From IMG/VR virus record IMGVR_UViG_3300009414_000001, positions 25,821 through 89,820 of that record: a stretch of DNA of 64,000 nucleotides. One strand, written 5' to 3'. Positions 25,387 to 62,696 of the stretch are shown here, in pieces (position 1 is the first letter of the stretch; each line of letters opens with the position of its first letter). The translations under genes and the position numbers were made by a program. Below the pieces are notes generated by a model, which was not told the DNA's origin, did not search any database, and saw only the letters and a list, made by a program, of their open reading frames with translations. Origin of the DNA: a virus.

Positions 25387-25433
25387 ATACCGCTCATTTT
25401 TTTTATTTTGATATCTATTTATAACACAGGATA

Positions 25434-25480: not shown

Positions 25481-25547
25481 TGTTGTGAGATTATCAAAAT
25501 CGCAAAAAGGCACGAATGCCGATTAATAGCTATAGAAGGGCTTACTC

Positions 25548-30430: not shown

Positions 30431-30440
30431 ATTTGTTAGC
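30431..30440. promoter_or_regulatory. dispersed motif in the portal/helicase divergent gap
   Basis: ATTTGTTAGC, one base off the common TTTGTTAGG motif, lies between the start codons of two divergent genes (30395 and 30484). It could act on either. Confidence 0.4.
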
Positions 30441-30483
30441 ATATCATGGCAATAATTTATCCTAAAATTTTAAAAGGCATAAT

Positions 30484-38749: not shown

Positions 38750-38766
38750 TAGTTTATTTGTTAGGA
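38750..38766 (-). promoter_or_regulatory. dispersed CCTAACAAAT motif in the leader of the 73-aa gene
   Basis: On the reverse strand CCTAACAAATAAACTA lies between a TATAAA box and the ribosome-binding site, an operator-like position near the transcription start. The same 16 bases occur at 12795-12810. Confidence 0.5.
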
Positions 38767-41214: not shown

Positions 41215-44200
41215 TTATTCTGCCTCAAGCTCAAGCAACTCAGACAATAGATCAGCTGCTTCATTAAGTTTCGGCTCTAATGACTCCATTAAGCCAGCAT
41301 CTTCAATATCACTAGCCAAAGTATCAAGCACCTGATCAAAGCTATCACTATCAGCTGGCGGATTATCTATTAATGCCTGAGCACGATTAGTTAATACAGA
41401 AGCTTGCTCAGAGTCGCCACCAGCAATAGCAGTGTCATTGCTAGGTTGCTGCTCTAAGCTCTCAGCTACAACGCTCAACTCTTCCCATGTGGTGTTTTCA
41501 AGTACATCTTCAAGCACCAAGTAATCAGGATGATCGTCTTCTTCATCGAACTCAGGGAAGTGGCGTAATATTTTACCTAAAGCATTTTTAATATTATTAC
41601 TTGACTGAGATTCAATATAATCAACAATAGTTAAGCCATCACTTTCAGCATCGGCCTTCATATTATCTATAACACGCTCAATTATCTCTTCTCGATTAAC
41701 GCCAGCCTCTTCGCGCTGCTCTGACTTAGACTCGAAGTTAAGCTCTACAAGTTCAAATGACTTAATATCAGCGCCACTTAATTTTTCAGCGTAACCAACG
41801 GCACCATGACGAATAGAGCGCTTATCTTGAACAGCATCAAATATCAATCTGGCCTCTTCATTGTCTAACATAATTGTAGTGTTAGCTTTAGGAATAGCGC
41901 CTAGCGATGGTGGGCGCATCATAAAGCCGTACCAATAGTTAGCGCCACCCATTTGCTCGGCTAAATCGAATTTCTTGTCTAATGCGCTTTTAGGGGCTTC
42001 TTCTTGCACTGGCACCTCTTCTGCTTCTGGCTCATCAAAAGAGCGTAGTTTCCATACACCATTACGAGTAGTAATGGCTGGCTTGTTCATGCGCTCGCTT
42101 TGGAATGCTTCAATATAATCTAATGCAGCATCAACAACAGTTTGATTGCCTTGTCTGTGTTGAGTTTTGATTTTACCCGTAATCGAATTGACGAATAAAG
42201 AACGTTCATACCCTTGCGCGGTGCCATCATCAATACCTTTGATAGTGCTTAAGCTGCTAGCCATATCTCTAACCAAGCCACGGTTTAATTGCTCAAGCTT
42301 TCTATAGGCATCATTAGTCGGGCTTGCTTCTGGCTTAGCTGGCGTTGCCGCCTCTTCTGGCGAAGCCCAAAGCGAGAAAGCTTCCATACGCTCGCGTCTT
42401 GTGTCGGGATCTTCACTGTATAATTCAAAGAATGCGTTATTTCCGAATTGCCCTGCACGATTACCATTAATAAACATAGCTGCTTTAGCATTACCACCCA
42501 TTATTTGCATGGTCGCTTTTTTGTCATTCTTGGCTAGGTCAACCATAAGAACATCATAGCCGCCATCTTCGAGATCTTTACCAATGTGAGCATTAACATC
42601 TATATCAAATTCTTTCGCCAGCTTGAGAACATCATCATAAGCCGCTTGAGCGTTATATTCACCTTCGCCACCACCATCGAGATATTCTTCAATGGTTTGT
42701 GGGGTAGGCTCTCTATCCTGCAAGTCTTTTAGGTTTACATCTAAAGGAATAAAGCCACCGTTTTGCAACTCATTTAATGCAGTATCTAAGAATAGAGATT
42801 GAGCAGCATAACCAACAAATAAAGAACGTTCTTTATCCACCGTATTGAAAGGAATATCACTTACTGACTTACTGTAGTCGTAAAGCTGGCGCTTAAAATC
42901 ATCAGATAACTTTAATCGGCTCGCTGGGATTGACTCTGTTAGTTCATCAAGCATAGAGTTAATTAACGGCTCTAAATCACCCTCAAGGTCTGCTATAGCT
43001 TTAGCGCTAACCTTTTCATCAATCAAATCATCAGCAACCGACTTAGCAAAATCATTTAGCTTGCTGGCTATTTCTTCGGTAGTCAGCGTTAAGTCATCTT
43101 TCACACCACCAAAATTTTCATAGGTAGCATTAGTTTCACGGCTAGCTAAATCATAAGCAACAGCTGATACATTAGCGCCAGCACCAATATTGCGAAGCTC
43201 TTTAGTTAGGACTGTATCGCCTTTAATGTAATCATCACCAGACTTATTCCAGCCGCTATCACGTAGATGATTAACCACTTCATACAATCGTCTAGTAAAA
43301 AGAGAGTCCAGCGTATCTTGCAATGCCAGCTCTAATTCTTCATTCGCCTGAATTATCTTATAATCTTCCGCACTGATAGTGCCTTTATCGGTAATTTCCT
43401 TAGCTTGCTCGCTTACACTCAACTCGCTGGCTGGCGCTTCTTCCGCTGGGATATCTTCACCACCATCAGGTTCAGGATCAATACCATCATCATTAAGACC
43501 TTTTACGACAATACCGTAATCAGGCGTTAAGCTATCAGCATTAGTAACCCAAGTCATATAGCCGCCTTGGGTTATTTCTGCTTGCTGTGCATCGAGATCA
43601 ACCATAGTTATCTCAAAGTCTACGCCGCCTTGATAGAAAACATCACCTTCAACTTTAACGCCTTTCTTTGACTCTTTTTCTTGAGCTAGATGAAGATCAT
43701 TAGCAGCCTGACCTTTTTCGTTTAACTTGCGTAATTTCTTAACGCTTGTTCCTGTTATTTTTTGGCTGTCAATTTTAGCATCGCGTTCATTTTCAAGCGT
43801 TAATAAAACAGTGTCCATAGTCTTGGTCGGCTTACGAACAACAGCGCCAACCTTGCGCCCTAGGTGGCTATAAACAACATCGCCTTTTTTCATGCTGTCC
43901 CATAAGTCAATTTGACCTTGTGAGGTAGTAACATCATCAAAGCGCACACCTTCTTTAATATTTGCTGCTTCTTCTGGTGTTATGCCTGCTCTATAAGCAT
44001 TACTGGCTCTTTTAGAAAAATCCGCAGCAGCTTCTTTATTCGTTTTTATATGAGCTTTCAGCTGAACATCTATGCGCTTAAACTCTTTGTCAGCAGCTTT
44101 AAATTCAGGATCATCTTTACCTTCATCACTAATAAGGTCGCTACCTTGCTTGTATTTCTTGGCTATATCATTAACCTTTTTACTGGCTGTTTCGGACTCA

Positions 44201-46326
44201 GCACCAAGAGTCGCAAGTTTTTTCTCAAAATCAGTTTTAGCCATCGCCAATCTAATTTGAGTTGGTTTTCTAAGGTCATCATTACTTGCTGTCATCTCTT
44301 CTGAAAACTTATAAAATTTTGATGATAGATCTTTAAAGATTACCTCATAGTCAGCCCCAAAACGACCCATTGTACTGCTTATTTTTTTGATGTTTTTATC
44401 TTTTCTAACTTCATTCCATTCATCACCAGTAACAAGGGTAACTTCTGGCATTTCTTCTGCAACCGCTGACTCTTCTGTGACACCAGAAATAGGGCGGTAT
44501 GGTTTAACAGTCTCACCTTTTATCCACTTTTTCAAATCTTCCATAGCAATCTCGGTAATATTACCTAAACCTTGCCAATCTTTATCGTAGTTAACCAAGT
44601 AGCCTTTCTTAGCTTTTTCTTTACTGTCAAAACCAAGCATGATCTTATGTTCATCAAAAGAGCCGTCTTGATTTGTTTGGTCGACAATATAAGCGTTTTC
44701 AGCTTCATGGTTTTCACCGACAAATATATCCAGTTTATCGCCATCAGCACCTTTAGTGCCTACAATGTCACCGTAATGGCTTTTCATTGTGGTAGACCAT
44801 TTTTCGCCATCAGCACCAACACCAGAGCGAGTTGAGCCTTTAGGGTTTTCAATGACAACATCTAACCCTTGAAACTTAGCTTTACCTTTTTTGTAGTTGC
44901 CAGCTAGCTTCTGTGCTTCGGTAGGTTCGGTCAAATCATTTTCAGTGCTAGTAGCTGCATCATTGGCCTTGGCTTCAAAATCGGCTTTAACACTAGGGTA
45001 TTTATCTGATTTATAACCACCCTCGATCGCATCATAAGCCGCCAAAAACTCTTTAGCGTCTACTTGGTCGCTTTTAACGATAGTGCTCGTTATAGTATCA
45101 GTAACGTACTTATCCCAAGCTTGCTGCCTGCTTAAGCCAGAAAAACGATAATGACTAGCTAAGTCTTTGTAGTTAATAAAAGGCGCTTCTAGCGACTTTT
45201 CAACGCTCTTTTCTGGCTCTTTTTTGGCTGGCTTATCGCCTACTTCATTGTCTACCAACTTGTCTATAGAGGTTATATCTCTCGACTTAACTCTAAGTGA
45301 GGCAGCAGCCATATCGTCAACATTGACGTTTAACAACTTACCACCGTTAACGATATCAATAACCTTACCTGTGAAGCTTTCACCGCCCCTCGTTGTAAAA
45401 GATATCTGACTGCCAGAATAGCGACCCTCACTATCATCGTTAGTTACGTCAAAAGGATTTTCAGGGTTTAGTTTGCTTTCTGGCTCTTTTTTGGCTGGCG
45501 TAGCTAGCTTAATTTCAGCGTTAAGGCTTGTTATAGTGCCTTCTTGCTTAGCTGCCATACCTTTGCGAGTTTTAAGTTTTTCGGTCAAATCGGCTTTTTG
45601 AGTTTCCAGCCCTGTCGCTTCTTCTGCAAGCTTAGCGCCTTCAACTTTCAACTCTTCAAGCTCAAGCTCTAGCTTTTCCGCTTCTAGCTTCTTTTCAGCT
45701 TGCGCAGTTTTACGTGCAACAAAAGCCCCTGAGTTCTTTTCCGCTAAATTAGATAGCACCATGGTCGCTTGACCAATAGAAATATCCATACCACCCGAAG
45801 GAGCGACAACATTAGTCACATCTTTAGTGTTAAGCCTAAACATAAAGGCGAATAACGTATCATCTTGGTTAAACTTCGCTGGATCTTCATCAGGCGCATG
45901 AAAAAGCATACTGATAGCTTGACCGTCACTAAGCTTTATTTGTGTTACTAGCGTTGCAAAGCCGCCAGCTACGCGAGGTTTACCGATAGTAATACCGTCA
46001 GTTTCTAAACCTGTACCTGTTAAAGAGGTATTTAATTTTTTAGCGAATGCTTTTACTGTGCGCTCTAAACGGGCAGGCGAGAACTTAGTGGAGATAGCCG
46101 CCAGCATAAGGCCGCTTTCTTCCTGTTCTGCATTATGGCCTTCCACCGTCTGACAGCCTGCGAGCATTATATTTTCAGCGTCATCAAATGACATAGGCTC
46201 ATGTAGCAAATGATTATCTTTACCAATAGCGAGCTTCGCATAAACGCTATCGCATGGCGCTAAAGCAGGAGAGTCTTTATCGATAATAGCTATAGCTGAT
46301 TGTTTACTGAATTTTATATCTGACAT
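41215..46326 (-). CDS. giant polyvalent protein with inorganic-pyrophosphatase-like domain
   Basis: The 1703-aa protein has an N-terminal part with a coiled coil (~205-275), linkers, and at residues ~475-610 a domain with GNYKKGKAKFQGLDVVIENP, TRSGVGADGEKWSTTMKSHY and GADGDKLDIFVG. This signature belongs to the pyrophosphatase-like module of phage and conjugative 'polyvalent proteins'. Acidic, low-complexity linkers connect further unassigned domains up to the end. Such proteins are thought to enter the recipient cell with the DNA and counter host defences. It is in an operon with the holin-like, coiled-coil and metallopeptidase genes. Most of its length has no known domain. Confidence 0.75.
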   Translation of the reverse strand: MSDIKFSKQSAIAIIDKDSPALAPCDSVYAKLAIGKDNHLLHEPMSFDDAENIMLAGCQTVEGHNAEQEESGLMLAAISTKFSPARLERTVKAFAKKLNTSLTGTGLETDGITIGKPRVAGGFATLVTQIKLSDGQAISMLFHAPDEDPAKFNQDDTLFAFMFRLNTKDVTNVVAPSGGMDISIGQATMVLSNLAEKNSGAFVARKTAQAEKKLEAEKLELELEELKVEGAKLAEEATGLETQKADLTEKLKTRKGMAAKQEGTITSLNAEIKLATPAKKEPESKLNPENPFDVTNDDSEGRYSGSQISFTTRGGESFTGKVIDIVNGGKLLNVNVDDMAAASLRVKSRDITSIDKLVDNEVGDKPAKKEPEKSVEKSLEAPFINYKDLASHYRFSGLSRQQAWDKYVTDTITSTIVKSDQVDAKEFLAAYDAIEGGYKSDKYPSVKADFEAKANDAATSTENDLTEPTEAQKLAGNYKKGKAKFQGLDVVIENPKGSTRSGVGADGEKWSTTMKSHYGDIVGTKGADGDKLDIFVGENHEAENAYIVDQTNQDGSFDEHKIMLGFDSKEKAKKGYLVNYDKDWQGLGNITEIAMEDLKKWIKGETVKPYRPISGVTEESAVAEEMPEVTLVTGDEWNEVRKDKNIKKISSTMGRFGADYEVIFKDLSSKFYKFSEEMTASNDDLRKPTQIRLAMAKTDFEKKLATLGAESETASKKVNDIAKKYKQGSDLISDEGKDDPEFKAADKEFKRIDVQLKAHIKTNKEAAADFSKRASNAYRAGITPEEAANIKEGVRFDDVTTSQGQIDLWDSMKKGDVVYSHLGRKVGAVVRKPTKTMDTVLLTLENERDAKIDSQKITGTSVKKLRKLNEKGQAANDLHLAQEKESKKGVKVEGDVFYQGGVDFEITMVDLDAQQAEITQGGYMTWVTNADSLTPDYGIVVKGLNDDGIDPEPDGGEDIPAEEAPASELSVSEQAKEITDKGTISAEDYKIIQANEELELALQDTLDSLFTRRLYEVVNHLRDSGWNKSGDDYIKGDTVLTKELRNIGAGANVSAVAYDLASRETNATYENFGGVKDDLTLTTEEIASKLNDFAKSVADDLIDEKVSAKAIADLEGDLEPLINSMLDELTESIPASRLKLSDDFKRQLYDYSKSVSDIPFNTVDKERSLFVGYAAQSLFLDTALNELQNGGFIPLDVNLKDLQDREPTPQTIEEYLDGGGEGEYNAQAAYDDVLKLAKEFDIDVNAHIGKDLEDGGYDVLMVDLAKNDKKATMQIMGGNAKAAMFINGNRAGQFGNNAFFELYSEDPDTRRERMEAFSLWASPEEAATPAKPEASPTNDAYRKLEQLNRGLVRDMASSLSTIKGIDDGTAQGYERSLFVNSITGKIKTQHRQGNQTVVDAALDYIEAFQSERMNKPAITTRNGVWKLRSFDEPEAEEVPVQEEAPKSALDKKFDLAEQMGGANYWYGFMMRPPSLGAIPKANTTIMLDNEEARLIFDAVQDKRSIRHGAVGYAEKLSGADIKSFELVELNFESKSEQREEAGVNREEIIERVIDNMKADAESDGLTIVDYIESQSSNNIKNALGKILRHFPEFDEEDDHPDYLVLEDVLENTTWEELSVVAESLEQQPSNDTAIAGGDSEQASVLTNRAQALIDNPPADSDSFDQVLDTLASDIEDAGLMESLEPKLNEAADLLSELLELEAE

Positions 46327-46327
46327 T

Positions 46328-46960
46328 TTAAGCGGCTACCTTATTGGTTAATTCTTCGCGTTGCTTTTTTAGCTGTGTGATAGTTTCACGGTTAACTGTT
46401 GCTTTAGTTGTTTCAGCTTCGATATCAGCCTCCAATTGACTGACGTCATCTTGCAGCGTTGAGACTAGCTTGCGTAAACCTTCTACGCGCTCTTTTAGTT
46501 GAGTTAGCAAGTCTTTTGCTTTCTCTACACGTTCGCCAGCTGTAGACGATAAACCGCTTTGTGTTTGCTTGGCTTCTTTACGGGTAGCTGCTGTTATTTT
46601 CTTTAATAGGCTTTTATCAAACGCCGACTGATTCTTTTTGACAAAGTTTGAAATGTCTTTAATCAAATAAGCTATTTTTTTATGTTCTTTGAATGGTGAT
46701 ACTTTGTTATTAAGCGCCACTTGATAAATGTCACCCGTATCATTGATGCGCAGTTCAACCACTTGACCGCCAGCGAGCACGAATACCGCTTTCTTGGTTT
46801 GCATGCCATTACGATTAATCTTGCGATTGTTCGCAGCCAAGTCGAGCACCTCTAGGCCGTTTCGCTTAAAAGCTTGAGAGACTTTCTTTAACCCGTTAGG
46901 GTGAATATCAGAAAAGTTAAGTACTTCACTCGCACCCACTTTTTTTATGCCGTTTTGCAT
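46328..46960 (-). CDS. coiled-coil protein preceding the polyvalent protein
   Basis: The 210-aa protein has an alpha/beta N-terminal half (VGASEVLNFSDIHPNGLKKV; FVLAGGQVVELRINDTGD) and a long C-terminal coiled coil (ERVEKAKDLLTQLKERVEGL and onward). Start at 46960 with AAGGTAG upstream. It may be a partner of the 1703-aa protein, whose gene starts one base later, comparable in place to the small Dar proteins of phage P1. Confidence 0.6.
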   Translation of the reverse strand: MQNGIKKVGASEVLNFSDIHPNGLKKVSQAFKRNGLEVLDLAANNRKINRNGMQTKKAVFVLAGGQVVELRINDTGDIYQVALNNKVSPFKEHKKIAYLIKDISNFVKKNQSAFDKSLLKKITAATRKEAKQTQSGLSSTAGERVEKAKDLLTQLKERVEGLRKLVSTLQDDVSQLEADIEAETTKATVNRETITQLKKQREELTNKVAA

Positions 46961-46964
46961 GGGA

Positions 46965-47468
46965 CTACCTTCTTGGCTGTTTGATTGAAATATCACCACG
47001 CAAACGCGCAATAATAGGGAATATTTTATAGAAAGGGTTTACATAACAGCCAATAGTGATCACTTCTAAATGCAGTTCCCATTCTTCATCACCTGATTGC
47101 AAAAATGGCTTGATGGGAAAGTGTAAGTATTCTTGACATTGGCTTGAGCGCCTATTGATAAATCCGACTCGCCTTTCAGCGCCTTGAGGCATAAAAGCTA
47201 ACGATCTAGGCTCTAACTCTATAACCGTGGTCGGCGCAGCCTTATCAACCAAACGCCCCCTTATTTTACTGTAGGGAAGCAACGGCGCATTGGACTGGTA
47301 TTCAAAAACAATCGATACACTATCGCCCTTTTTTGTCGGAATATTTGCCAAACGATGACTAATCAGTTTGATATGCCCCCGTTTTAAAATAAAACGCTCT
47401 AACAAGAAAAGTAAAACTGCGATTACAATGCCTGTAATTAAAATTGAAGTATCATTTATTAATGTCAT
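46965..47468 (-). CDS. membrane-anchored protein, 167 aa
   Basis: One N-terminal membrane helix (SILITGIVIAVLLFLLERFI) is followed by a ~130-aa beta-rich domain. The start at 47468 lies one base after the holin-like gene stop, so the two are coupled. Perhaps a lysis-related or envelope protein; no family recognised. Confidence 0.6.
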   Translation of the reverse strand: MTLINDTSILITGIVIAVLLFLLERFILKRGHIKLISHRLANIPTKKGDSVSIVFEYQSNAPLLPYSKIRGRLVDKAAPTTVIELEPRSLAFMPQGAERRVGFINRRSSQCQEYLHFPIKPFLQSGDEEWELHLEVITIGCYVNPFYKIFPIIARLRGDISIKQPRR

Positions 47469-47469
47469 G

Positions 47470-47769
47470 TTAATTATTCCGACCAATGCCAAGCACTGAA
47501 TGTAGTTTTTGTTTAAAAGCCCGTAGTATTTCAGCGCCGTTAAGCCCTGCCACTAAAACACAAAAAAGAGTAAGCCAAATCCCTAAGTGCTCACTTACAC
47601 AAAGAAACCAAGCGCCGAAACCAGCCAGTACACTAAGCAAAAGATCTAATAGTAGATTTGCTTTGCTTCTAGCCTTCCCCAGCACTATAACCCCTTGCAA
47701 GTAAGTAGCTAAGCCACCAATAAACGACAGCAATAACACCGCTATCGCCTGAAAATGCAATTCACCCAC
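47470..47769 (-). CDS. holin-like membrane protein
   Basis: This 99-aa protein has three hydrophobic helices (about 6-27, 38-55 and 62-78), a short basic C-terminus and a GTG start with GGAAAGAG upstream. This is the size and layout of class I holins, and it opens a late-looking operon directly behind a conserved 46-bp element. No endolysin is seen next to it, so the holin call is provisional. Confidence 0.55.
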   Translation of the reverse strand: MGELHFQAIAVLLLSFIGGLATYLQGVIVLGKARSKANLLLDLLLSVLAGFGAWFLCVSEHLGIWLTLFCVLVAGLNGAEILRAFKQKLHSVLGIGRNN

Positions 47770-47800: not shown

Positions 47801-47846
47801 GATAATAAAACGATTTTATAATATTCCCTATCATTTGTTAGGGCGC
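47801..47846 (-). promoter_or_regulatory. conserved 46-bp late-promoter-like element, copy 1
   Basis: It matches the element at 53007-53052 at 39 of 46 bases with no gaps: GATnATAAAACGATTT, then TATTCCCTAT, then TTTGTTAGGGCGC. On the reverse strand it contains the inverted repeat CCCTA-N8-TAGGG. It ends 31 bases before the holin-like gene. Confidence 0.7.
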
Positions 47847-47856
47847 AATCAAAAAA

Positions 47857-47886
47857 TAAAAAAGGCAGCTCGAAAGCTGCCTTTTT
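47857..47886 (-). terminator. terminator ending the 52.9-47.9 kb operon
   Basis: AAAAAGGCAGC and GCTGCCTTTTT form a perfect stem around TCGAAA, with A and T runs on both sides. It separates the fibre operon from the holin operon. Confidence 0.85.
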
Positions 47887-47902
47887 ATATTGCAATGTTA
47901 AT

Positions 47903-48262
47903 TTACATCTCAGACTTAACTGCTTTCACTTTAAAAGCGCCTTGAGGCATATTTGGATGACAAAACAACTGCCCATTTACAGGGTGCTTATCATCCCATA
48001 CGCGCATGGACACTGAATATGTTCGGTTATGGACTAACCCAGTAACATCGGTGAGATCAATCGTTACCTTGCCGTCTTCAAATACCAGCTTACCATTTTC
48101 ACTTGAAACGGTTTGATCGTGAATATAAAGCTCCATCTTTGTAGCGTTTCTCGTTGCAAACGGTAATAAGTCACCAGCTTTAAAAGTGTCAACAGCATTA
48201 ACAAAGGTAAAACGCCTCACAATAAGGTTTCCGCTCCCCAAATAAAATGACTCGACACTCAT
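47903..48262 (-). CDS. probable virion protein, 119 aa
   Basis: A beta-rich protein with two strands regions (MELYIHDQTVSSENGKLVFE; YSVSMRVWDDKHPV), similar in feel to small phage head or tail decoration domains. Last gene of the 52.9-47.9 kb operon, four bases after the 204-aa gene. No specific family. Confidence 0.55.
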   Translation of the reverse strand: MSVESFYLGSGNLIVRRFTFVNAVDTFKAGDLLPFATRNATKMELYIHDQTVSSENGKLVFEDGKVTIDLTDVTGLVHNRTYSVSMRVWDDKHPVNGQLFCHPNMPQGAFKVKAVKSEM

Positions 48263-48265
48263 GCG

Positions 48266-48880
48266 CTATGCCTTAACTTTTAGTTTAGGTAAATAAATCG
48301 TTGTCGCTGATATATTTACTTGATCAGAGCTAGCAGCAGCAATCGCTTTATCAGTTGTTTCATTTACTGCATAAACAACTTCTGATCCGCTCACGTAGAC
48401 AGTCCATAAGTCATCGCGGATATCAAAGTCACTAGTTGCATCTGGCGGCGTAGCAAATGTTGCAGCATCAAAATTAAGCACATCACCCGAAACACTCGTA
48501 ATCTTACCTGTCTGGCCTGCACCCGTACCGCCTGTAATATGCACAACCTTGTCGGTATAATCAGGCCATGCGGCGCTGGTTTTTGTAATACTAGAGCCTG
48601 TGCCCGAAGTAGCCTGCCCCGTAAAATGCAATTCACTATCACTTGTTTTTGATAGCCCTGACTTTGGATTGATCACTAGCACTTCATCTTCGCCAATCGT
48701 AGTGACTGACATATCCACTTGATCTACTGTTATGTTAGCCATCGACTGTGCGCCGACAACTGATGCATACAAGTCGGCTTCTTTGAAATTTTTTACTAAA
48801 TGTACTGTTGTTATTGCGGTTTTTACTGAGTTTAAATAGGCCGTATATGCCGAATTAAAAACAAATGGTACTTGACTCAT
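48266..48880 (-). CDS. probable virion protein, 204 aa
   Basis: A beta-rich structural-type protein with the segment VVHITGGTGAGQTGKITSVS (~112-131), a motif frequent in phage tail and fibre proteins. It lies immediately after the 1109-aa fibre gene (four-base gap). Function beyond a structural role cannot be given. Confidence 0.6.
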   Translation of the reverse strand: MSQVPFVFNSAYTAYLNSVKTAITTVHLVKNFKEADLYASVVGAQSMANITVDQVDMSVTTIGEDEVLVINPKSGLSKTSDSELHFTGQATSGTGSSITKTSAAWPDYTDKVVHITGGTGAGQTGKITSVSGDVLNFDAATFATPPDATSDFDIRDDLWTVYVSGSEVVYAVNETTDKAIAAASSDQVNISATTIYLPKLKVKA

Positions 48881-48883
48881 GGT

Positions 48884-51800
48884 TTACCCCTTAGTTGTTG
48901 AAAATTGTGTTGTTAAAGATGTACTACTGGCTTGCTCTGTTGATTGCTCTGTTAAAGACTCACTACCGAAAGTTGGCGATAGTGACATAGACGCAATATT
49001 GCCCCAATCGAGATCGGGCATTGCGACAATGAATAAGGCGTTCTCTGTACAAAAGGACTGCTGAAAGGCGTGTAGACTAGTAAACTTACTAACTTCAAGC
49101 ACTGACGATATACCAGCAAAACTAAGCTGCTCTGCTTTTTCGCTGATAGCCCTAAAGCCAGACTCAATCTCTGTTAGCTTGGCAAGGCTAAGTTGCTCTG
49201 AATTTAATGATTGCGTTAATTGTATTTCACTTAACGTGCTACTCAGTGCGAACTGTAATTGCTCAACAGACAGGCTTTTAGTTTCACTATTACGTGAAAT
49301 AGTTACGGTTGCCACTTCGCTTTCTTGAATTGTGTCAGCGCTATTAAATAACGCATGCACTAATGCGTTAGTGAGTGAAGAAAATGACGTTTGCTCGCTG
49401 TCTAAGCTATTAAACGCTCCACCCGTAGTAATATCAACGGAACTCGCCTCAGACATCTGCTCTGAGCTTAAGCTTTGTGTATCAATGAACAAATCGATAC
49501 TCGCGCTAGTAGAAAATTGTTCTTGAAGCACAGATTGACTAAGGAGTTTTGCCAGCACTTCAATGTCAGTAGTTGATGCTAATTGCAGCTGCTCTGAATT
49601 TTGATTGACAAGGCTGTTAATCGAATCAAGACTAGTATTATCAGAAAAGCTCAGCTGCTCACTATTGACACTTAAAAACTCTGTAATCAACGCCATTGAA
49701 GCACTTGAGGAAAGCTGTAATTGCTCTGAGCTTTGGCTTGATAATTTAGCGATTGAATCAACACTACCAGTCGAAGCTAATTGCTCTTGCTCGGCGCTTT
49801 GGCTAATTAACTGAGCTAACACCTTAACACTAGTACTTTCAGTAAAATGGCCTTGCTCGACGCTTTGCACAACAAATTGCGCCAGCATTTCAACGCCTGA
49901 GATTGAAGCCAATTGCAGCTGCTCTGATTTATTACTAAAAAGCTGCGCAATGATATCAACACCAACATTGTCGGCTAGCTGCTCTTGCTCAGAATTTTGA
50001 CTCGAAGTGTTATGAATCGCAGCAGCAATAGTCGATATATCACTTGTGCTTGCATAAGCAAGCTGAACAACTGCGTTGCTGATTAAATCGATAGGTACGC
50101 CAACTACAGCAGCATGATAAGCCCAACTAACGATGTCGCTTGAATTCCAACCTTTACCAACTAAATGAGTGTCAGCGAAAGCTTGATTTATTCTGTAATC
50201 ATTTGAGGCAGAATCAACGAACGCACTTGTAAAATCAACGTTAGCTTGTGATCCACCTCCTGTAGCTGTGCTATCACCACTAATACAGTTTAGATCTGCA
50301 ACTTGTAAGAAATCACCTTTTGTAGCTCCTGTTGCTACGCAGTTTGTGAAATTTGCTCGTAATGCGTTGTAATCGCCATTATCAACAAAAACACAGTCAT
50401 TGAAGAACACATTGATTTTCAGTGTATTTAAACCAGAATAAGCACCTCTATTACAGTTGCTTATTCTGGTGTTTTTTACAATTAAAGGGTTATCTGTATA
50501 GGAAACCCCGTTAGCCGCCCCACTATTATCTATGTGACAAGAATCGATTATATTATTATTCGTCGCATCACCATTGCTACCTGAATAACTATATACATTC
50601 AAGTCCTTTAAGATGAATGTACACCTTGCCCCGTATATATGTGCTGTACCTAACTTAGCGCCTCCACCTTTAAAATCAGCTTTCTCACCAGTTGCGGCCT
50701 TTAATTGTAATACCCCTAAGTGATCTACTACTGAGATAGTACCTGACTCACCTGTATCTCCATAAACTAGACCTATTTTATGTGCATCTACGTTAACAGT
50801 CGCAGTCTCAAAGCTACTTGCGGTAGTGTAATCCTTACCTGACCCAATAGAGTAAATGTTTGTGGGCAGAGCTAGCTGATAGTTAGTATCAGTCATATTA
50901 ACAAGCGTTGCGATTGCACCGTTTATTAAGTCGGGTACTGTTTGGCCTGATACCCTATCAAATGACCAGTATCGGTTATTGCTAGGATCTACTGCATCAT
51001 AATTCCAGTATTCCTGTACCATACCTGCGTAACTAGCATTAGATTTACCACCTATACGGTCTATAGGCAGTAATGCTATGGTAGATGGATTTGTTTGACT
51101 AATTATTACACCATCTACTGTAATAATTCGGAGCTTAGTAGTTCCATCATAAGTATCACGAAGCTCATACTTATGCATTATTTCAATATCGATACCTAAA
51201 GCTGCTAAATCTATAGATACACCCCATAATGTAGAATTAGATCCTACTCTTAGTGCGTTATTTGTATTCACTCCTGCGGAATCTATAACACAAGTACCTC
51301 CTGTGGATTTTGCTATAAAACCTCGCCTGCCGTCAAGAGTGTTATTTATCAAAGCAAATTTTACAGGATCCACTGAAACTATATCATCAACACCATCAAA
51401 ATTAAGAGCGTAACGATCTAATACATCGTCATTTGTCTGCCAAGCCTGATAACTCTCGTTAGAGGTTAATGCTATAGCCTCTATGGTGGTTAATTCACTA
51501 CCCGCACAATTATCGGTAAATAAAAATTCATTTATATGCCCAGACCAACCATAATAATTATTCCAACTACCAGTTCTACCTAAGTAAAATTCACCGCTAG
51601 AAAATTGATAAGGTCTACCCGTATGAGGGGAGCCATTTACAACTATATTCGAGGTGTAATCTATGCCGTTGATTACAATCATAGGGTTGCGAGCTTCATC
51701 TAACTGCATGAATACTCTGAGGATACCCCCGTTACTTAATCCTAACGTGCTTACTGGTACATCTAATAACCATCGATGGCTTGACATTTGCTCTAACCGA

Positions 51801-52213
51801 AAGCTTAAATTATCGGTCGTTTTATCCCAATGTACTCGGATCCCCCCACCATGGCACAGGTATTGAAAATTTACGGTTAAAGGCTCGTAATAGCAGTCAA
51901 TATAATAAGCCCTAGCCGAATCAGCGTTAGCTACAGACCATGCTGACGTAAAGACGTTTTCAACTAACCCGCATGTATTAGTTTTTGCGTTGCCGTTATC
52001 TGCTGTATCGAAAATCCCGAGAGCGGTGACACTGCCCTCAGTGCCATATTGCATCACTAGAGGGGCTAATCCATCTACATCTGGCATGATGGCGGGTTGA
52101 CCGCTAGCAGCCTCGGTAAACAGCCACTTATACGAGGAATCAAACAATCTTCCTGCGGCTGTGCCTAAGTTTGCTTGGTATGGGTAGGCTAAATCAGACT
52201 TAAATGTAGTCAT
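48884..52213 (-). CDS. giant tail fibre or spike with SEQ-repeat domain
   Basis: This 1109-aa protein has three visible parts. Residues ~70-260 look like a LamG/concanavalin-type sugar-binding fold (YYIDCYYEPLTVNFQYLCHG; GEFYLGRTGSWNNYYGWSGH). Residues ~460-690 resemble a right-handed beta-helix of short Asn/Cys-rich strands. From ~715 to ~1040 there are about 14 repeats of 25-27 residues with a core [S/K]xEQxQLAS and a following hydrophobic helix, giving an unusual solenoid or coiled segment. It is probably the host-recognition fibre. It is the second gene of the late-type operon at 52.9-47.9 kb. Confidence 0.72.
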   Translation of the reverse strand: MTTFKSDLAYPYQANLGTAAGRLFDSSYKWLFTEAASGQPAIMPDVDGLAPLVMQYGTEGSVTALGIFDTADNGNAKTNTCGLVENVFTSAWSVANADSARAYYIDCYYEPLTVNFQYLCHGGGIRVHWDKTTDNLSFRLEQMSSHRWLLDVPVSTLGLSNGGILRVFMQLDEARNPMIVINGIDYTSNIVVNGSPHTGRPYQFSSGEFYLGRTGSWNNYYGWSGHINEFLFTDNCAGSELTTIEAIALTSNESYQAWQTNDDVLDRYALNFDGVDDIVSVDPVKFALINNTLDGRRGFIAKSTGGTCVIDSAGVNTNNALRVGSNSTLWGVSIDLAALGIDIEIMHKYELRDTYDGTTKLRIITVDGVIISQTNPSTIALLPIDRIGGKSNASYAGMVQEYWNYDAVDPSNNRYWSFDRVSGQTVPDLINGAIATLVNMTDTNYQLALPTNIYSIGSGKDYTTASSFETATVNVDAHKIGLVYGDTGESGTISVVDHLGVLQLKAATGEKADFKGGGAKLGTAHIYGARCTFILKDLNVYSYSGSNGDATNNNIIDSCHIDNSGAANGVSYTDNPLIVKNTRISNCNRGAYSGLNTLKINVFFNDCVFVDNGDYNALRANFTNCVATGATKGDFLQVADLNCISGDSTATGGGSQANVDFTSAFVDSASNDYRINQAFADTHLVGKGWNSSDIVSWAYHAAVVGVPIDLISNAVVQLAYASTSDISTIAAAIHNTSSQNSEQEQLADNVGVDIIAQLFSNKSEQLQLASISGVEMLAQFVVQSVEQGHFTESTSVKVLAQLISQSAEQEQLASTGSVDSIAKLSSQSSEQLQLSSSASMALITEFLSVNSEQLSFSDNTSLDSINSLVNQNSEQLQLASTTDIEVLAKLLSQSVLQEQFSTSASIDLFIDTQSLSSEQMSEASSVDITTGGAFNSLDSEQTSFSSLTNALVHALFNSADTIQESEVATVTISRNSETKSLSVEQLQFALSSTLSEIQLTQSLNSEQLSLAKLTEIESGFRAISEKAEQLSFAGISSVLEVSKFTSLHAFQQSFCTENALFIVAMPDLDWGNIASMSLSPTFGSESLTEQSTEQASSTSLTTQFSTTKG

Positions 52214-52216
52214 AAA

Positions 52217-52942
52217 TTAACCCACGGAATTAGTGATACTTGCTGTAAAATCTCTAGTGTATTTACTTGAGGCAAAAGCTTTAACTTTTGTCAGTAAACC
52301 CGAGTAGTTAAACTCTGTTGATAATGCTCCGACGAAATTAGCAGGAACATTAATAACGGCTCGTTGTCTATTATCTAGCGCGTAGTTGGTCGTTACAACC
52401 TCGTTGATTACCTCAGTATTGCCACTTGAGGCAATAAAAGTGATAGAGTCAGCAAAAGGTAAAGCCTCAGTAATATTTACTATGACCGAAATCTTCTCTC
52501 GATACTTGTTCAAGATGTAGTCTTGGCTTGGGTAGTTAACTTCTACTTCTGACGGCGATTGCGCCAGCCTTGCTTGATCGTAATCTGCCTGTGTCACGCT
52601 CTCATAAGGGAGCCTCGTCGCATTAGAGCCACCAACTAGAACAACTTGCAAATTAAGTAGATTTTGCTTGTGAGTTTCATCCAGCTCCCCTTGAATGATG
52701 GCGTTAAGCATTCCTTGTAATATCACACCGTCCTCAGTGGTATTGCGGAAATCATACGCTGACGATGTTTTTATTCTGTCATACAGAGCTGACTGCATTC
52801 CTCCTGCGTGATTTTTGAAATACAAATACAAATCATTAAAAGCTAAAATAATAGCCATTTCATTGCTGTTGTATGTCTTCTCAGCTGGAACTGAGTAAAG
52901 CTTTGCGGCTTCTAACGTAGGAAAAGTACCAAGCGGCGTCAT
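52217..52942 (-). CDS. probable virion protein, 241 aa
   Basis: Mixed alpha/beta protein (MAIILAFNDLYLYFKNHAGG; helical middle; beta C-terminus with FIASSGNTEVINEVV). First gene of the fibre operon, 64 bases behind the second copy of the 46-bp element. It may be a fibre base or adaptor; this is inferred only from position. Confidence 0.55.
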   Translation of the reverse strand: MTPLGTFPTLEAAKLYSVPAEKTYNSNEMAIILAFNDLYLYFKNHAGGMQSALYDRIKTSSAYDFRNTTEDGVILQGMLNAIIQGELDETHKQNLLNLQVVLVGGSNATRLPYESVTQADYDQARLAQSPSEVEVNYPSQDYILNKYREKISVIVNITEALPFADSITFIASSGNTEVINEVVTTNYALDNRQRAVINVPANFVGALSTEFNYSGLLTKVKAFASSKYTRDFTASITNSVG

Positions 52943-53006
52943 AGTTCGACCTTTATTGTTTATTGATAACGAAGTCGCTATTGGACTTGGTTAAATTCAT
53001 AAAGGT

Positions 53007-53052
53007 GATGATAAAACGATTTCAACTTATTCCCTATGTTTTGTTAGGGCGC
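53007..53052 (-). promoter_or_regulatory. conserved 46-bp late-promoter-like element, copy 2
   Basis: See copy 1 at 47801-47846; this copy precedes the fibre operon. CCCTA (53032-53036) and TAGGG (53045-53049) form the same inverted repeat with an 8-base spacer. Confidence 0.7.
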
Positions 53053-53078: not shown

Positions 53079-53666
53079 TTAATCGTTGTCTTTTATGCAG
53101 ACAAGCGAACCATTAGCTAACGCAAAGTGCTTGATAATGCTTTCTGGTGGCAATCCTAGACTCTTAACGCACTCAGTCACAAATATAACCAGCCCACCCT
53201 TTTTGGCGTGCTCTTGCGCTGCTTTCGCAATCTTAGCGCCATTTGTACCTACATCATCGATGAGGTAAGTCTTTTTGCTGCTTGTTAGCGGCTGATTGTC
53301 GCCTACAATTTCAATGTCTTGATTGCTTGCTTTGAGCGCCTTTATTAATGCTTCTCTTCCTGCGCCAGCATTACTCTCAATGTAAACAGGCACCACCTTC
53401 GAAAGAAAAAACATCGCCTTTACAGCGCCCTCGATAACATTGATTTGCTTATTTGTGCTTTCGGTCATCACTACCTCGTCGTATTTAGTTGTTGCATCAG
53501 TATTTTTAACTTCGCCAGTTGAAAGTTTTGGCTGCTTGAGAACAAAGCTGGCCTTGGCTGCTTCTTTTGTTTTGCCAAAGCCACTAAATGTTATTAAATT
53601 CATCTTATGGGTAAAGCAGCGATATTGTTCGGCTTGTTCGCAATATTCATATTGTAAGTTATCCAT
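53079..53666 (-). CDS. hypothetical protein, 195 aa
   Basis: An unrecognised alpha/beta protein; YIESNAGAGREALIKALKAS and KTYLIDDVGTNGAKIAKAAQ could form a nucleotide-binding-type fold, but there is no Walker A. The start has the cassette junction upstream. It is the last gene of the 59-53 kb cassette operon. Confidence 0.6.
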   Translation of the reverse strand: MDNLQYEYCEQAEQYRCFTHKMNLITFSGFGKTKEAAKASFVLKQPKLSTGEVKNTDATTKYDEVVMTESTNKQINVIEGAVKAMFFLSKVVPVYIESNAGAGREALIKALKASNQDIEIVGDNQPLTSSKKTYLIDDVGTNGAKIAKAAQEHAKKGGLVIFVTECVKSLGLPPESIIKHFALANGSLVCIKDND

Positions 53667-53683
53667 AACAAAAGTTTCCTATA

Positions 53684-53824
53684 TTACATCTCTTCAAGAT
53701 CAGGTAGTGCAGAGCGCGCATCTTCCCATGATTCAAATTCATATTTTACACGTTGAGGGTAAATCAGTACTTCAACAGTACCGTCCTCAAATTCAACCAT
53801 TGAAACCTTGCGTTGACTACTCAT
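53684..53824 (-). CDS. 46-aa acidic protein
   Basis: Reads MSSQRKVSMVEFEDGTVEVL and has a helical end (WEDARSALPDLEEM). The cassette junction AATAGGAAACGGC precedes it and another junction follows its stop, which supports the gene. Function unknown. Confidence 0.55.
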   Translation of the reverse strand: MSSQRKVSMVEFEDGTVEVLIYPQRVKYEFESWEDARSALPDLEEM

Positions 53825-53839
53825 AAAAGCCGTTTCCTA

Positions 53840-54097
53840 TTAAATTAAACCAGTAAATAACACATCTTTTTGTGATGGATTATTTTCAGCATTTTCTTTG
53901 ATATTCTCGTTAGACATCCATAAATAACCAAGCTCTTTACCATCTTCGATAATCATGAATTTAGCGTGTTCTTTTCCACGACCATGACGAGTGTAATTTT
54001 TATCAATGAGGCGATATGTGATAACTGGCTCGCAATCACAATCATTAGCACCACATTGACCGCATAAAGCAAACTGTACCTCTGATTCGTTAGTCAT
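53840..54097 (-). CDS. CxxC-type protein, 85 aa
   Basis: The start holds FALCGQCGANDCDCEP, a cluster of four Cys that may bind zinc, followed by a beta-rich part. The start at 54097 is chosen over 54106 because the junction AGGAA then has normal spacing; the first ATG lies inside the junction motif itself. Confidence 0.6.
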   Translation of the reverse strand: MTNESEVQFALCGQCGANDCDCEPVITYRLIDKNYTRHGRGKEHAKFMIIEDGKELGYLWMSNENIKENAENNPSQKDVLFTGLI

Positions 54098-54127
54098 AAT
54101 TGCCATTTCCTATATAAATAATTAGTG

Positions 54128-54556
54128 TTAAACGTCACCGTCACGATGTTGTGGTGGCACTTCAAAAGGTTCTAAATCAGGGCAGTCAAAAGCAACACTT
54201 ACACAAGTAAAATCGACTTGGCTTTCAAGAACTGACTCAAGGCATTGTAATTCTTCAAGCCATTCCTGAGTGGCTTCGCCATTTTCAGTGTCATGCCAAT
54301 TGTCGCTACGGTCTGCCATGTAACAATCAATTTTGCCTGTTTGCTCGGTTACTAGTGAGTGAGTGTTTTCAAGTAGTTCATTGTGCTTGTCCGTGAACTC
54401 TTCAAGCGTTAACCCGTCCACCTTAAACTCAGCTACTTTTGCTCTCATGTACTCTTCAAGTTCATCTTTGAAGTTAGCCACTTGCTCCAAGTTACTATTA
54501 AGCTTTTCAATGCGTTCAGCTATTTCTTGATGCGCTTTATTATTGATTTTTTTCAT
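54128..54556 (-). CDS. coiled-coil protein, 142 aa
   Basis: A helical, charged protein (IAERIEKLNSNLEQVANFKD; LEEFTDKHNELLENTHSL) with an acidic C-terminus. It is preceded by a perfect cassette junction. No function assigned. Confidence 0.62.
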   Translation of the reverse strand: MKKINNKAHQEIAERIEKLNSNLEQVANFKDELEEYMRAKVAEFKVDGLTLEEFTDKHNELLENTHSLVTEQTGKIDCYMADRSDNWHDTENGEATQEWLEELQCLESVLESQVDFTCVSVAFDCPDLEPFEVPPQHRDGDV

Positions 54557-54574
54557 TAAAAGCCATTTCCTATA

Positions 54575-55063
54575 TTAAGATTCAAAGATAAACACAACAA
54601 CCACATCAAGCGATTTCACAAGGGTTTTTGCCTCTATCATTAACTTATCTTTTTCAGTTAAAACGTATTCTTCATCTTTATCTTCGGGTAACTCAATATC
54701 ATAATTACAGATACTAGCAAGAGCGCTTAAATGATGATTAAAAGAGTCATTAGCCGTTACTGCTTCCGCACTCCCGTATTCAAACGATAATGTGTCAAAA
54801 TTGTTTTCATGTTGATTTAATTCGCACTGTGAAACTCTTACGTTGATCACTGGCAAAATAATGTCACTATCAGGTTCTAACAAATATTCTAAACAGCGAT
54901 TTTTCGCAAGGGCTTTGCCGCTTGGTGTTCCGCTACCTACGGTCACGGAATTTAGTAAAGTGACCACGTTAACTTGCGCGGCTAAAGTTTTCTTACCGTT
55001 AACATCTGATTGGCTACACATGCCTTGAACCGTGATTGTTTGCTTGAAAAGCCTTCTATTCAT
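54575..55063 (-). CDS. hypothetical protein, 162 aa
   Basis: Begins with alternating strands (MNRRLFKQTITVQGMCSQSD) and has a helical end. Perhaps a beta-sheet DNA- or protein-binding fold; no family recognised. Cassette junction upstream and downstream. Confidence 0.6.
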   Translation of the reverse strand: MNRRLFKQTITVQGMCSQSDVNGKKTLAAQVNVVTLLNSVTVGSGTPSGKALAKNRCLEYLLEPDSDIILPVINVRVSQCELNQHENNFDTLSFEYGSAEAVTANDSFNHHLSALASICNYDIELPEDKDEEYVLTEKDKLMIEAKTLVKSLDVVVVFIFES

Positions 55064-55072
55064 TGCCGTTTC

Positions 55073-55402
55073 CTACTTAAGAGAATGACTATTTTCTATG
55101 TCACTAAGCTCGTTTAGAACTATTGCAACAGCGAAGCTTTTAGCTTGTTTAGTCATTCGTGTTTCTGAATTAATTTCTTTGCCAATTTTGAACAGTGATT
55201 GCTTAACAGCTTCGTTTGAATTTCGATTATTCCAACAATTGATAGCATCTTTTTCTTTAACCCAACCACCGCCCTCTTGCTCCATATTAACTTTACAGGT
55301 AGCACATGAAACCGACCAAAGCTGCCAACCATTACAGTAAGACTGTACGAATTCATCACTACCGCAAAAGGGGCAAGGTAAAGGTATTAATCGTTTAGCC
55401 AT
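55073..55402 (-). CDS. Lar-like restriction-alleviation-type zinc protein
   Basis: The first ~45 residues (LPCPFCGSDEF, then VSCATCKV, then AINCWNNR) match the Lar_restr_allev pattern: two CxxC pairs and a final WN-R. Phage Lar proteins modulate type I restriction, but many relatives have no shown activity. The remaining ~55 residues are helical. The start at 55402 is used because the earlier ATG lies within the junction motif. Confidence 0.75.
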   Translation of the reverse strand: MAKRLIPLPCPFCGSDEFVQSYCNGWQLWSVSCATCKVNMEQEGGGWVKEKDAINCWNNRNSNEAVKQSLFKIGKEINSETRMTKQAKSFAVAIVLNELSDIENSHSLK

Positions 55403-55414
55403 AAAAGCCATTTC

Positions 55415-55609
55415 CTATATTAAGTTATTCAATTTATCTAGTCGTTTTTGTCTGCGACCTAGCTCTTTAATCCGTTGCTTACGCTTTCTTTTTTCACGGT
55501 GATTGACTTTGTCATCAGTCAAACATTTTGGCATGGGTAAATCATTAACAGCTTGAGCCATGGAGCTACTTGTTAAGCCAAGACCTAGACTTAAAACGAC
55601 CTTTTTCAT
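55415..55609 (-). CDS. basic 64-aa protein with hydrophobic start
   Basis: A short hydrophobic start (MKKVVLSLGLGLTSSSMAQA) resembles a signal peptide with a cleavage site after AQA. The rest is Lys/Arg-rich (REKRKRKQRIKELGRRQKRL). If exported it would be a cationic periplasmic peptide. Junction variant ATAGGAGACGG upstream. Confidence 0.55.
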   Translation of the reverse strand: MKKVVLSLGLGLTSSSMAQAVNDLPMPKCLTDDKVNHREKRKRKQRIKELGRRQKRLDKLNNLI

Positions 55610-55627
55610 AAGTGTCCGTCTCCTATA

Positions 55628-55921
55628 TTAAGAATATTGTTCTTCTGCCCAAACTTTCCAATCAAAACCACACTCACATTTGTTATGTTCGTCTTGATAT
55701 TCAGCATCTAATTCACAATCATCATTTGGGCAAGTTGGCACTTCAACGGTTATCTTTGTACCAACAGGAAATCTCTTAGCATTAAAAGAGAAATCGTCCA
55801 TTTGCTCTGTTGCCATATCACCTTCACATTGCGTTTCAATGTATGGTTTATGCTCTTGACAGCTATCACCACAGTAAACATCAACTTTAACTTGACCTGT
55901 TGCTACTACGTTATATTCCAT
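55628..55921 (-). CDS. Cys-rich protein, 97 aa
   Basis: Contains CPNDDCELD and CECGFDWKVW near the end plus Cys pairs near the start, probably zinc-binding. It has a variant junction (ATAGGATATGG). No family recognised. Confidence 0.6.
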   Translation of the reverse strand: MEYNVVATGQVKVDVYCGDSCQEHKPYIETQCEGDMATEQMDDFSFNAKRFPVGTKITVEVPTCPNDDCELDAEYQDEHNKCECGFDWKVWAEEQYS

Positions 55922-55931
55922 GTTCCATATC

Positions 55932-56120
55932 CTATACTCGTTTAATTAAATGTTTAGGTGTTTCAATAAACAAAAACCAAGCCCAACCCACAAGACCAGA
56001 TAGTAACAATTGAAAAGCAGCTTCCTTTCTATTTTTTGGCTTCGGTAGAATGTGAATTGTTACAAACGCAATAGCTGAATAGATGCACAGCCAACCCCAA
56101 ATTTGAGTTAATATTTCCAC
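55932..56120 (-). CDS. 62-aa two-helix membrane protein
   Basis: Hydrophobic helices at about 7-24 and 37-54 mark an inner-membrane protein. I use a GTG start at 56120 with AGGAAAAGG upstream (cassette junction); a longer frame reaches 56174 but would run over the 42-aa gene's stop. Confidence 0.6.
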   Translation of the reverse strand: MEILTQIWGWLCIYSAIAFVTIHILPKPKNRKEAAFQLLLSGLVGWAWFLFIETPKHLIKRV

Positions 56121-56130
56121 TTGCCTTTTC

Positions 56131-56259
56131 CTATTGCTGTTTTGGTTCGGGACATTCGCTTTGCTGAACATCAAAGTTAATCTGATTTGACTGCAAAAAT
56201 TCCATCAAGGATTCAATTTCTTCCTCGTTATTTTGAAAACTATCAATAACTATTTTCAT
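56131..56259 (-). CDS. 42-aa acidic protein
   Basis: Reads MKIVIDSFQNNEEEIESLME with a Gln/Glu-rich end. ATAGGAAATGGAACG precedes it, and its stop abuts the next junction. A short but well-placed cassette gene. Confidence 0.5.
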   Translation of the reverse strand: MKIVIDSFQNNEEEIESLMEFLQSNQINFDVQQSECPEPKQQ

Positions 56260-56281
56260 CGTTCCATTTCCTATACGTTAA

Positions 56282-56542
56282 TTAATAAAAATCATTGAGT
56301 CGCTTTAACTCTGCGATCACTTCGGTTTTTATAAAAGAAACCCAACCGCATTCAGGCTTTACACCTCCATAAAAAACCACTTCAACAATTGGATCGGGCA
56401 ATGAAAAAAAGCTAAATCCAGTGTCGTTTAAATACTTTTGAGCAACCAAATCACAATAACTTTGTATCTCAGCATGAACACGGATTGATTCATTAGCTAG
56501 CTTGACACTTCTGTCACATATTTGACCTATACTTTTAGCCAT
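56282..56542 (-). CDS. hypothetical protein, 86 aa
   Basis: A helical start (MAKSIGQICDRSVKLANESI), a central IVEVVFYGGVKPECGW and a helical end. Perfect cassette junction upstream. Function unknown. Confidence 0.6.
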   Translation of the reverse strand: MAKSIGQICDRSVKLANESIRVHAEIQSYCDLVAQKYLNDTGFSFFSLPDPIVEVVFYGGVKPECGWVSFIKTEVIAELKRLNDFY

Positions 56543-56601
56543 AAAAAGCCATTTCCTATATTAAATTAGGTTGTAGTTTTACTTGATTACGCAAGGACGA
56601 T

Positions 56602-56703
56602 TTACATTGTCGCTTTCAATGGGTTTACTGTTACCTCAGTCCGATTTCTAGCACTTATAGAATACGGATAACGGAAGTTGCATTTATTTTTTATTAGAGT
56701 CAT
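56602..56703 (-). CDS. possible 33-aa peptide
   Basis: Reads MTLIKNKCNFRYPYSISARN; GAGAGA lies 13 bases upstream. It is the only candidate between 56543 and 56733 and lacks the junction motif, so it could be spurious. Nothing else is seen there. Confidence 0.25.
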   Translation of the reverse strand: MTLIKNKCNFRYPYSISARNRTEVTVNPLKATM

Positions 56704-56732
56704 TAAAGCTAAATCTCTCTAGCGGTTCTCTG

Positions 56733-56810
56733 TTATTTGCAAAGCATTTTAGAACCTGCTGAACACCTCGTTGCTTTTGTAAATGACACTATCAAAAATG
56801 CCATTAGCAA
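56733..56810 (-). CDS. possible 25-aa peptide behind a cassette junction
   Basis: The junction TATAGGAAACGGC at 56812-56824 has no large gene behind it. Starting at a TTG (56810) or ATG (56804), the frame gives a 25- or 23-aa peptide beginning LLMAFLIVSFTKAT. It may be a tiny gene or the remnant of a lost cassette. Confidence 0.3.
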   Translation of the reverse strand: MLMAFLIVSFTKATRCSAGSKMLCK

Positions 56811-56827
56811 AAGCCGTTTCCTATACG

Positions 56828-57115
56828 TTAAATATTGCCATTTCGTTCAAAAATCGCACTCACTTCATCATTTGATAAATCGAATTGACCGACAACAATA
56901 TTTCTGTCGGTATCACCAAAGCCATCACTGTAGTATTGGTCGATAAGACTTGAAAAATGCTTGTAAGCATTCGCTTTTGTCGGATTATCTAACATTGATG
57001 TTAAAACATCGTTGTTGCACCAAGCTCCACAATAATCTCTTATGTCGTGACCGCAGATTTCACGCAACCTGTAATAGTCTTTTTTTGCTCTTTCGTAATT
57101 ATCTTTAATACCCAT
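56828..57115 (-). CDS. hypothetical protein, 95 aa
   Basis: Helical, charged, with GIKDNYERAKKDYYRLREIC near the start. The start at 57115 follows a junction variant (GGGAAACGGC); upstream residues belong to overlap with the RHH gene. No family recognised. Confidence 0.6.
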   Translation of the reverse strand: MGIKDNYERAKKDYYRLREICGHDIRDYCGAWCNNDVLTSMLDNPTKANAYKHFSSLIDQYYSDGFGDTDRNIVVGQFDLSNDEVSAIFERNGNI

Positions 57116-57131
57116 AAAAGCCGTTTCCCAT

Positions 57132-57341
57132 TTAAGTTCGTTGTTCAATAAGAGATAAAACATACACACTTCTATTGATATTTTTATCTTTCGCTTCGTT
57201 TGTTAATTCATCACGTAGTTTTTCTGGCAACCAAATTTCTAAACGAACATTTCCTTTTTCTTTTTTAGCTTTTTGAGCTTTTCTTTGGTTAACTTTTAGT
57301 TGTTCACTTCTAGGTAATTCGTTTGTTTTTGGTCTAGCCAT
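57132..57341 (-). CDS. small ribbon-helix-helix-like DNA binder
   Basis: The 69-aa protein has a basic start (KVNQRKAQKAKKEKG) followed by VRLEIWLPEKLRDELTNEAK, an RHH-type strand and first helix, and VYVLSLIEQ as second helix. Such proteins are antitoxins or small repressors. Perfect junction upstream. Its operator is unknown. Confidence 0.65.
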   Translation of the reverse strand: MARPKTNELPRSEQLKVNQRKAQKAKKEKGNVRLEIWLPEKLRDELTNEAKDKNINRSVYVLSLIEQRT

Positions 57342-57354
57342 AAAAAGCCGTTTC

Positions 57355-57573
57355 CTATACTGGTAAAAGTTGATATTGGCACTCAGTAGACATCACTGTT
57401 CGCCCATTATCTAAGTTAATAATCATAAGCCCCGCACCTGAAACATCTTCACGGATAATTGTGCCTAAAATCGTTTTGCTAGTATCGTAATTAAAGCAAA
57501 CTTTAACCTTTCGATTTAACCAAGCACCTTGTTCGGGGAAGTTATCAAGGCTAATGTTATTTTCAATTCCCAT
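57355..57573 (-). CDS. hypothetical protein, 72 aa
   Basis: A beta-rich, SH3-like small protein (AWLNRKVKVCFNYDTSKTIL; GTIIREDVSGAGLMIINLDN). Junction upstream. No function assigned. Confidence 0.6.
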   Translation of the reverse strand: MGIENNISLDNFPEQGAWLNRKVKVCFNYDTSKTILGTIIREDVSGAGLMIINLDNGRTVMSTECQYQLLPV

Positions 57574-62683: not shown

Positions 62684-62696
62684 ATTTTGTTAGTAC
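62684..62696. promoter_or_regulatory. dispersed TTTTGTTAG motif upstream of the collar-fibre gene
   Basis: ATTTTGTTAGTAC lies 17-30 bases before the start at 62667, in the same antisense orientation as copies before other leftward genes. Confidence 0.35.

Follow-up and report, generated by a model that had tools for sequence, protein, structure and literature searches.

What reads two nearly identical 46-bp elements, each of which stands in front of a leftward operon of a phage genome? We examined them in the 64,000-nt window (the whole stretch of DNA analysed, whose positions are used throughout) and in the complete record of 89,820 bp. We propose, with a probability of roughly 0.55 and on the strength of the DNA sequence, that the elements are promoters carrying an operator for the phage's own C1-type immunity repressor, which would silence both operons together. 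Most likely this is a variant of a classic switch rather than a new sigma-factor system.

The phage, its operons and the two elements

The record is a temperate P1-like phage-plasmid. Proteins of P1 matched by tblastn include the portal, protease, capsid (gp23), sheath (gp22), baseplate and tail gene products, together with PacB, DarA, DarB, Hdf, LydA, LydB and Ref; ParA and Rep proteins are likewise encoded. The bplA gene is split across both ends, so that the record resembles an opened circular genome. Two plasmid-type replication initiators, Rep3 (18766-19770) and a TrfA-like protein (24553-25497), are encoded within the window.

The original prediction placed the elements before leftward operons of virion or lysis type. 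Both operons do run leftward, and the genes behind element 1 are lydA (holin), lydB, hdf and darA; for the second operon the functional label reflects only its position. The elements and the genes behind them are as follows.

47801 to 47846, minus strand: element 1, predicted operator-promoter of lydA-lydB-hdf-darA (39/46 identity to element 2)
47470 to 47769, minus strand: lydA-type holin (PHROG holin, 5.7e-13)
46965 to 47492, minus strand: lydB (PF16084)
46328 to 47011, minus strand: hdf (phrog_1620, 1e-34)
41215 to 46326, minus strand: darA with an inserted inorganic-pyrophosphatase-family domain (PF18788, PF18823, PF18789)
53007 to 53052, minus strand: element 2, predicted operator-promoter of the four-gene operon 52942-47903 (39/46 identity to element 1)
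52217 to 52942, minus strand: first gene behind element 2, 241 aa (family and phage-record searches without match)
48884 to 52213, minus strand: 1109-aa protein of the second operon (family and phage-record searches without match)
48266 to 48880, minus strand: 204-aa protein of the second operon (family search without match)
47903 to 48262, minus strand: 119-aa protein of the second operon (family search without match)

DarA of this phage has 1703 aa (639 aa in P1), with the PF18823 domain sitting between DarA_N and DarA_C. None of the four proteins of the second operon (241, 1109, 204 and 119 aa) has a homologue in five Vibrio and Photobacterium relatives, and single-sequence AlphaFold2 models were uninformative, with a mean pLDDT of 32 for the 204-aa protein and 41 for the 241-aa protein.

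The agreement between the elements at 39 of 46 positions was confirmed. Their flanks show no similarity to each other, and blastn within the record aligned the elements over a 64-bp stretch (E ~1e-8). No other direct ungapped pair of 46-mers in the window matches as well; the runner-up has 37 identities, and shuffling the window once gave a best pair of 32. The consensus, read on the transcribed strand, is GCGCCCTAACAAAnnATAGGGAATAnnnTnAAATCGTTTTATnATC. A hunt for further copies beyond the window, which had been suggested, yielded none in the 89,820-bp record, where the next best match agreed at 25 of the 39 shared positions. Searching IMG/VR with CCCTAACAAAnnATAGGGAAT gave as its sole match a second contig of this phage, IMGVR_UViG_3300025251_000023, which showed 100% identity over the compared part and was also the only contig recovered by a LydA-based search for relatives. 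In the five Vibrio and Photobacterium P1-like phage-plasmids, no 46-bp unit of this kind was seen before late genes.

As direct repeats that flank the second operon, in a phage that encodes tyrosine recombinases, the copies might be taken for recombination sites bounding a 5.2-kb gene cassette, but they differ at seven positions, have arms of only 5 bp, and contain a core that recurs singly before unrelated genes. An RNA leader hairpin is no better placed, with folding no better than that of shuffles (z -0.8 and -1.1), and we consider both explanations very improbable.

Promoter anatomy and the absence of Lpa

The placement of the elements as promoters is supported, element 1 lying directly behind a strong terminator and, like LPdar of P1, directly upstream of lydA-lydB-hdf-darA. 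The absence of a normal -35 box was also borne out, since the best candidates kept in both copies are CTAACA (4/6) and TAGGGA (3/6). Both elements keep two registers: register a, which reads CTAACA-17-TAAAAT in element 1 or CTAACA-17-TGAAAT in element 2, and register b, which reads TAGGGA-17-TATTAT or TAGGGA-17-TATCAT, respectively. In both copies the -10 of register b is the better one, and neither register has a good -35.

47859 to 47886, minus strand: intrinsic terminator closing the second operon and lying just upstream of element 1 (12-bp stem and T-run, fold z -4.6)
47802 to 47807, minus strand: -10 candidate TATTAT, register b, element 1 (5/6; 17 nt from TAGGGA at 47825-47830)
53008 to 53013, minus strand: -10 candidate TATCAT, register b, element 2 (5/6; 17 nt from TAGGGA at 53031-53036)
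47813 to 47818, minus strand: alternative -10 TAAAAT, register a, element 1 (17 nt from CTAACA at 47836-47841)
53019 to 53024, minus strand: alternative -10 TGAAAT, register a, element 2 (17 nt from CTAACA at 53042-53047)

The dyad CCCTA-N8-TAGGG, to which attention had been drawn, is present in both elements and occurs exactly twice in the window, but it is near chance and weak when taken alone: some 5-bp dyad is found in 28% of random genomic 46-mers, and one with GC-rich arms in 6.9%.

A phage-specific sigma factor, perhaps of the ECF type, had been suggested as the reader of the elements. An ECF-like gene is indeed encoded (3733-4374; PF07638, 24.7 bits against a cut-off of 21.1), but the elements lack ECF-type -35/-10 spacing (GGAAC/TGAAC-N15-18-CGT) and the gene is an orphan, with no relatives found in P1, D6, the five marine relatives, the phage and plasmid collections or the viral contigs. 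As relatives without the gene keep the core motif at the same genes, we disfavour this suggestion and judge it highly unlikely. A ppp-type phosphatase gene precedes the ECF-like gene.

In P1, the model phage-plasmid, late genes are described as dependent on the activator Lpa. The late boxes of P1 read AAGTNACTT or close variants, and this 9-bp inverted repeat AAGTNACTT, centred near -22 in P1, is absent from both elements. Lpa itself (PF25716) was unmatched in the record at E <= 1, against scores of >190 bits for P1 and D6. It is also absent from the Vibrio and Photobacterium P1-like phage-plasmids CP090491, CP100427, CP082309, CP046068 and CP082321, which share a P1-like late gene set with this phage. 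We thus rejected the elements as Lpa-dependent late promoters of P1 type: they have neither box nor activator gene, and only the position upstream of lydA fits.

The elements could instead be late promoters that need a phage activator in place of Lpa, acting on conserved bases between or around -35 and -10, with the core CTAACAAA secondary or only lowering expression in the lysogen. The LPdar-like position and the poor -35 in both elements would suit such an activator, as would the long conservation, which includes ATAGGGAATA, located in register a about where the -22 box of P1 sits; the stretch 'AACAAATGA' moreover resembles P1 LP26 and LPsit. Against it, there are only two copies in the record, the extended part is missing at other late genes, Lpa is absent and the dyad is near chance. 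We rate this as a possible but distinctly less probable account than control by C1. An additional activator may nevertheless act through the rest of the element, besides control of C1 type, as ATAGGGAATA and AAATCGTTTTATNATC, common to both elements beyond the core, are not accounted for by the operator core and may be bound by a second factor.

Other words recur upstream of late genes in related phages. In Vibrio P1-like phages (L021, L023 and L019, and also L031, L075, L106 and L107), lydA is preceded by a conserved AAGTAACGCCCRTCTATTGAGC or AAGTAACGC, and GTAACGC stands before portal or capsid genes as well; these words are a possible late-activator box of the Lpa-less branch. P1-like phages with kinship to the D6 type (L038-L064 and others) have AAATTACAGACTnnnTAC before lydA, which is similar to the D6 late word TCACAAACT and is probably a variant Lpa box.

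A recurrent core and the C1-type repressor

The part of the elements that recurs elsewhere in this phage is the core CTAACAAA, which is found in 14 upstream regions, compared with a mean of 1.04 for its anagrams, and ranks top of 168 anagrams. It precedes late genes as well as small early-type genes. Its copies in the elements, similar sites elsewhere and the c1 gene are these.

47834 to 47841, minus strand: CTAACAAA core of element 1, predicted C1-type operator core
53040 to 53047, minus strand: CTAACAAA core of element 2, predicted C1-type operator core
9465 to 10223, plus strand: C1-type repressor gene, adjoining pacB as in P1 (BLASTP to P1 C1, 2e-14; phrog_1678, the same PHROG)
9412 to 9431, minus strand: two TACTAAC sites (9412-9418 and 9425-9431) shortly before c1, on the strand opposite to it
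62685 to 62695, minus strand: operator-like site before tail-fibre gene R
30431 to 30441, minus strand: operator-like site before the portal gene
12794 to 12804, plus strand: operator-like site before pacA, in opposite orientation
767 to 777, minus strand: operator-like site before a conserved 156-aa gene
38756 to 38766, minus strand: operator-like site before a 76-aa gene

The core also occurs on both strands (25436, plus; 25478, minus) just before the TrfA-like initiator gene. Counterparts in the relatives (TTTCCTAAC, ATTCCTAAT and ATTCCGAA) stand before lydA, capsid, portal, mat or pacA genes and near c1. Within 250 nt upstream of c1, the six Lpa-less phages together have 10 motif copies against 0.45 expected, a comparison for which the words were picked from upstream counts and shortened by eye, so that its P-value is indicative only; in the same count the exact P1 word was missing near P1 c1, though annotated variant operators exist there.

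Blind word searches upstream of late genes returned CCTAACAAA in 8/12 cases for this phage, the words TTCCGAACA, TCCTAAT and TTTCCTAA for the Vibrio phages and one Photobacterium phage, and TTTTCCTAA, second-ranked, in 4/6 for the other Photobacterium phage. For the reference phages these searches returned the Lpa box in P1 (9/9) and TCACAAACT in D6 (6/7). Two other roles for the motif were considered and rejected. As a translation leader it lies near start codons here, yet it is antisense at c1 and pacA and its distances vary in the relatives; as a P1-type -22 box at all sites, it would be too near the start codon at mat, R and the capsid gene.

The C1 operator of P1 is ATTGCTCTAATAAATTT, with 22 sites (PMC8546580). 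Words of ATTGCTCTAATAAATTT are the top upstream words of P1 in the upstream count that was applied to this phage, and the P1 operator and the motif found here have CTAA(C/T)AAA in common. In both phages the sites are mostly in sense orientation. P1 C1 operators lie over or beside the -35 of PpmgR, PpmgT, ban and Plpa, and the same is proposed here: in register a the core would lie over the -35, as at PpmgR, PpmgT and ban, and in register b just upstream of it, as at Plpa. The specificity would differ from that of P1 C1, as the ATTGCT half is absent from the sites of this phage. A further difference is that sites here stand directly before lydA and several late genes, whereas LPdar of P1 has no annotated C1 operator. 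No open-licence paper on C1 operators in marine P1-like phages was found by title or abstract start.

Several features weigh against an operator in the elements. Their flanks are unlike those of the other sites, with GCC before the core and ATAGGG after it, so that only the 8-bp core is common (8/8). By a profile built from the other sites the elements rank only 25th and 34th; they match the 17-bp P1 operator at ~10/17 positions, and the best hits of the P1 profile include neither of them. The distance from core to start codon is 72 and 105 nt at the elements and 17-45 nt at most other sites, and conservation over 46 bp exceeds what an operator core needs.

Another phage regulator might bind the CTAAC motif in place of C1. 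This phage encodes a KorA/PapB-like HTH protein of 78 aa (L005:19504-19740) that was found, among the relatives compared, only in the two from Photobacterium. This KorA/TrfB-like protein could be the regulator, as the two Photobacterium phages also have CCTAAC motifs, but it was not found in three Vibrio relatives, which have a motif of this kind both at the same genes and close to c1. KorA binds a palindrome, moreover, and the core is asymmetric. We regard this alternative as unlikely.

For the proposed C1 control, we infer binding of C1 to the core, the transcription starts and repression, which would act as follows. In the lysogen, C1 would occupy the asymmetric core (C)CTAACAAA, which overlaps the -35 of a weak promoter or lies right against it, and so keep lydA-lydB-hdf-darA and the second operon off. 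Inactivation of C1 would let RNA polymerase start a short way downstream, from the -10 TATNAT or from TNAAAT, 17 nt from CTAACA. The conserved downstream half would then be the promoter, perhaps plus the site of a second regulator. Joint control of the two operons, as originally predicted, is plausible.

Late control in the Lpa-less branch

In P1, control reaches the late genes through Lpa, whereas here repressor sites are proposed directly at late genes. A broader reading, which we offer tentatively and think doubtful, is that in the Lpa-less marine P1-like branch lysis and virion genes are under the direct control of the immunity repressor, at operators of their own, and not of a late activator. 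The elements would then be composite promoters, with a C1-type protein at or just upstream of the -35 and a second factor on the conserved downstream half setting the late switch. If the marine branch does lack Lpa and has repressor operators directly before its late operons, a single phage family has changed the way in which lysis is controlled, and C1-operator pairs of differing specificity could be compared as a series. The two elements are compact, and the proposal can be tested with one protein and two reporters.

Two further observations concern other parts of the window. A leader, TATAGGAAATGGCTTTTATG, recurs nearly letter for letter before many small genes of a leftward block (53600-57400), and an ORF of 136 aa at 2495-2905 contains internal repeats (GSKTKRVDFN...).
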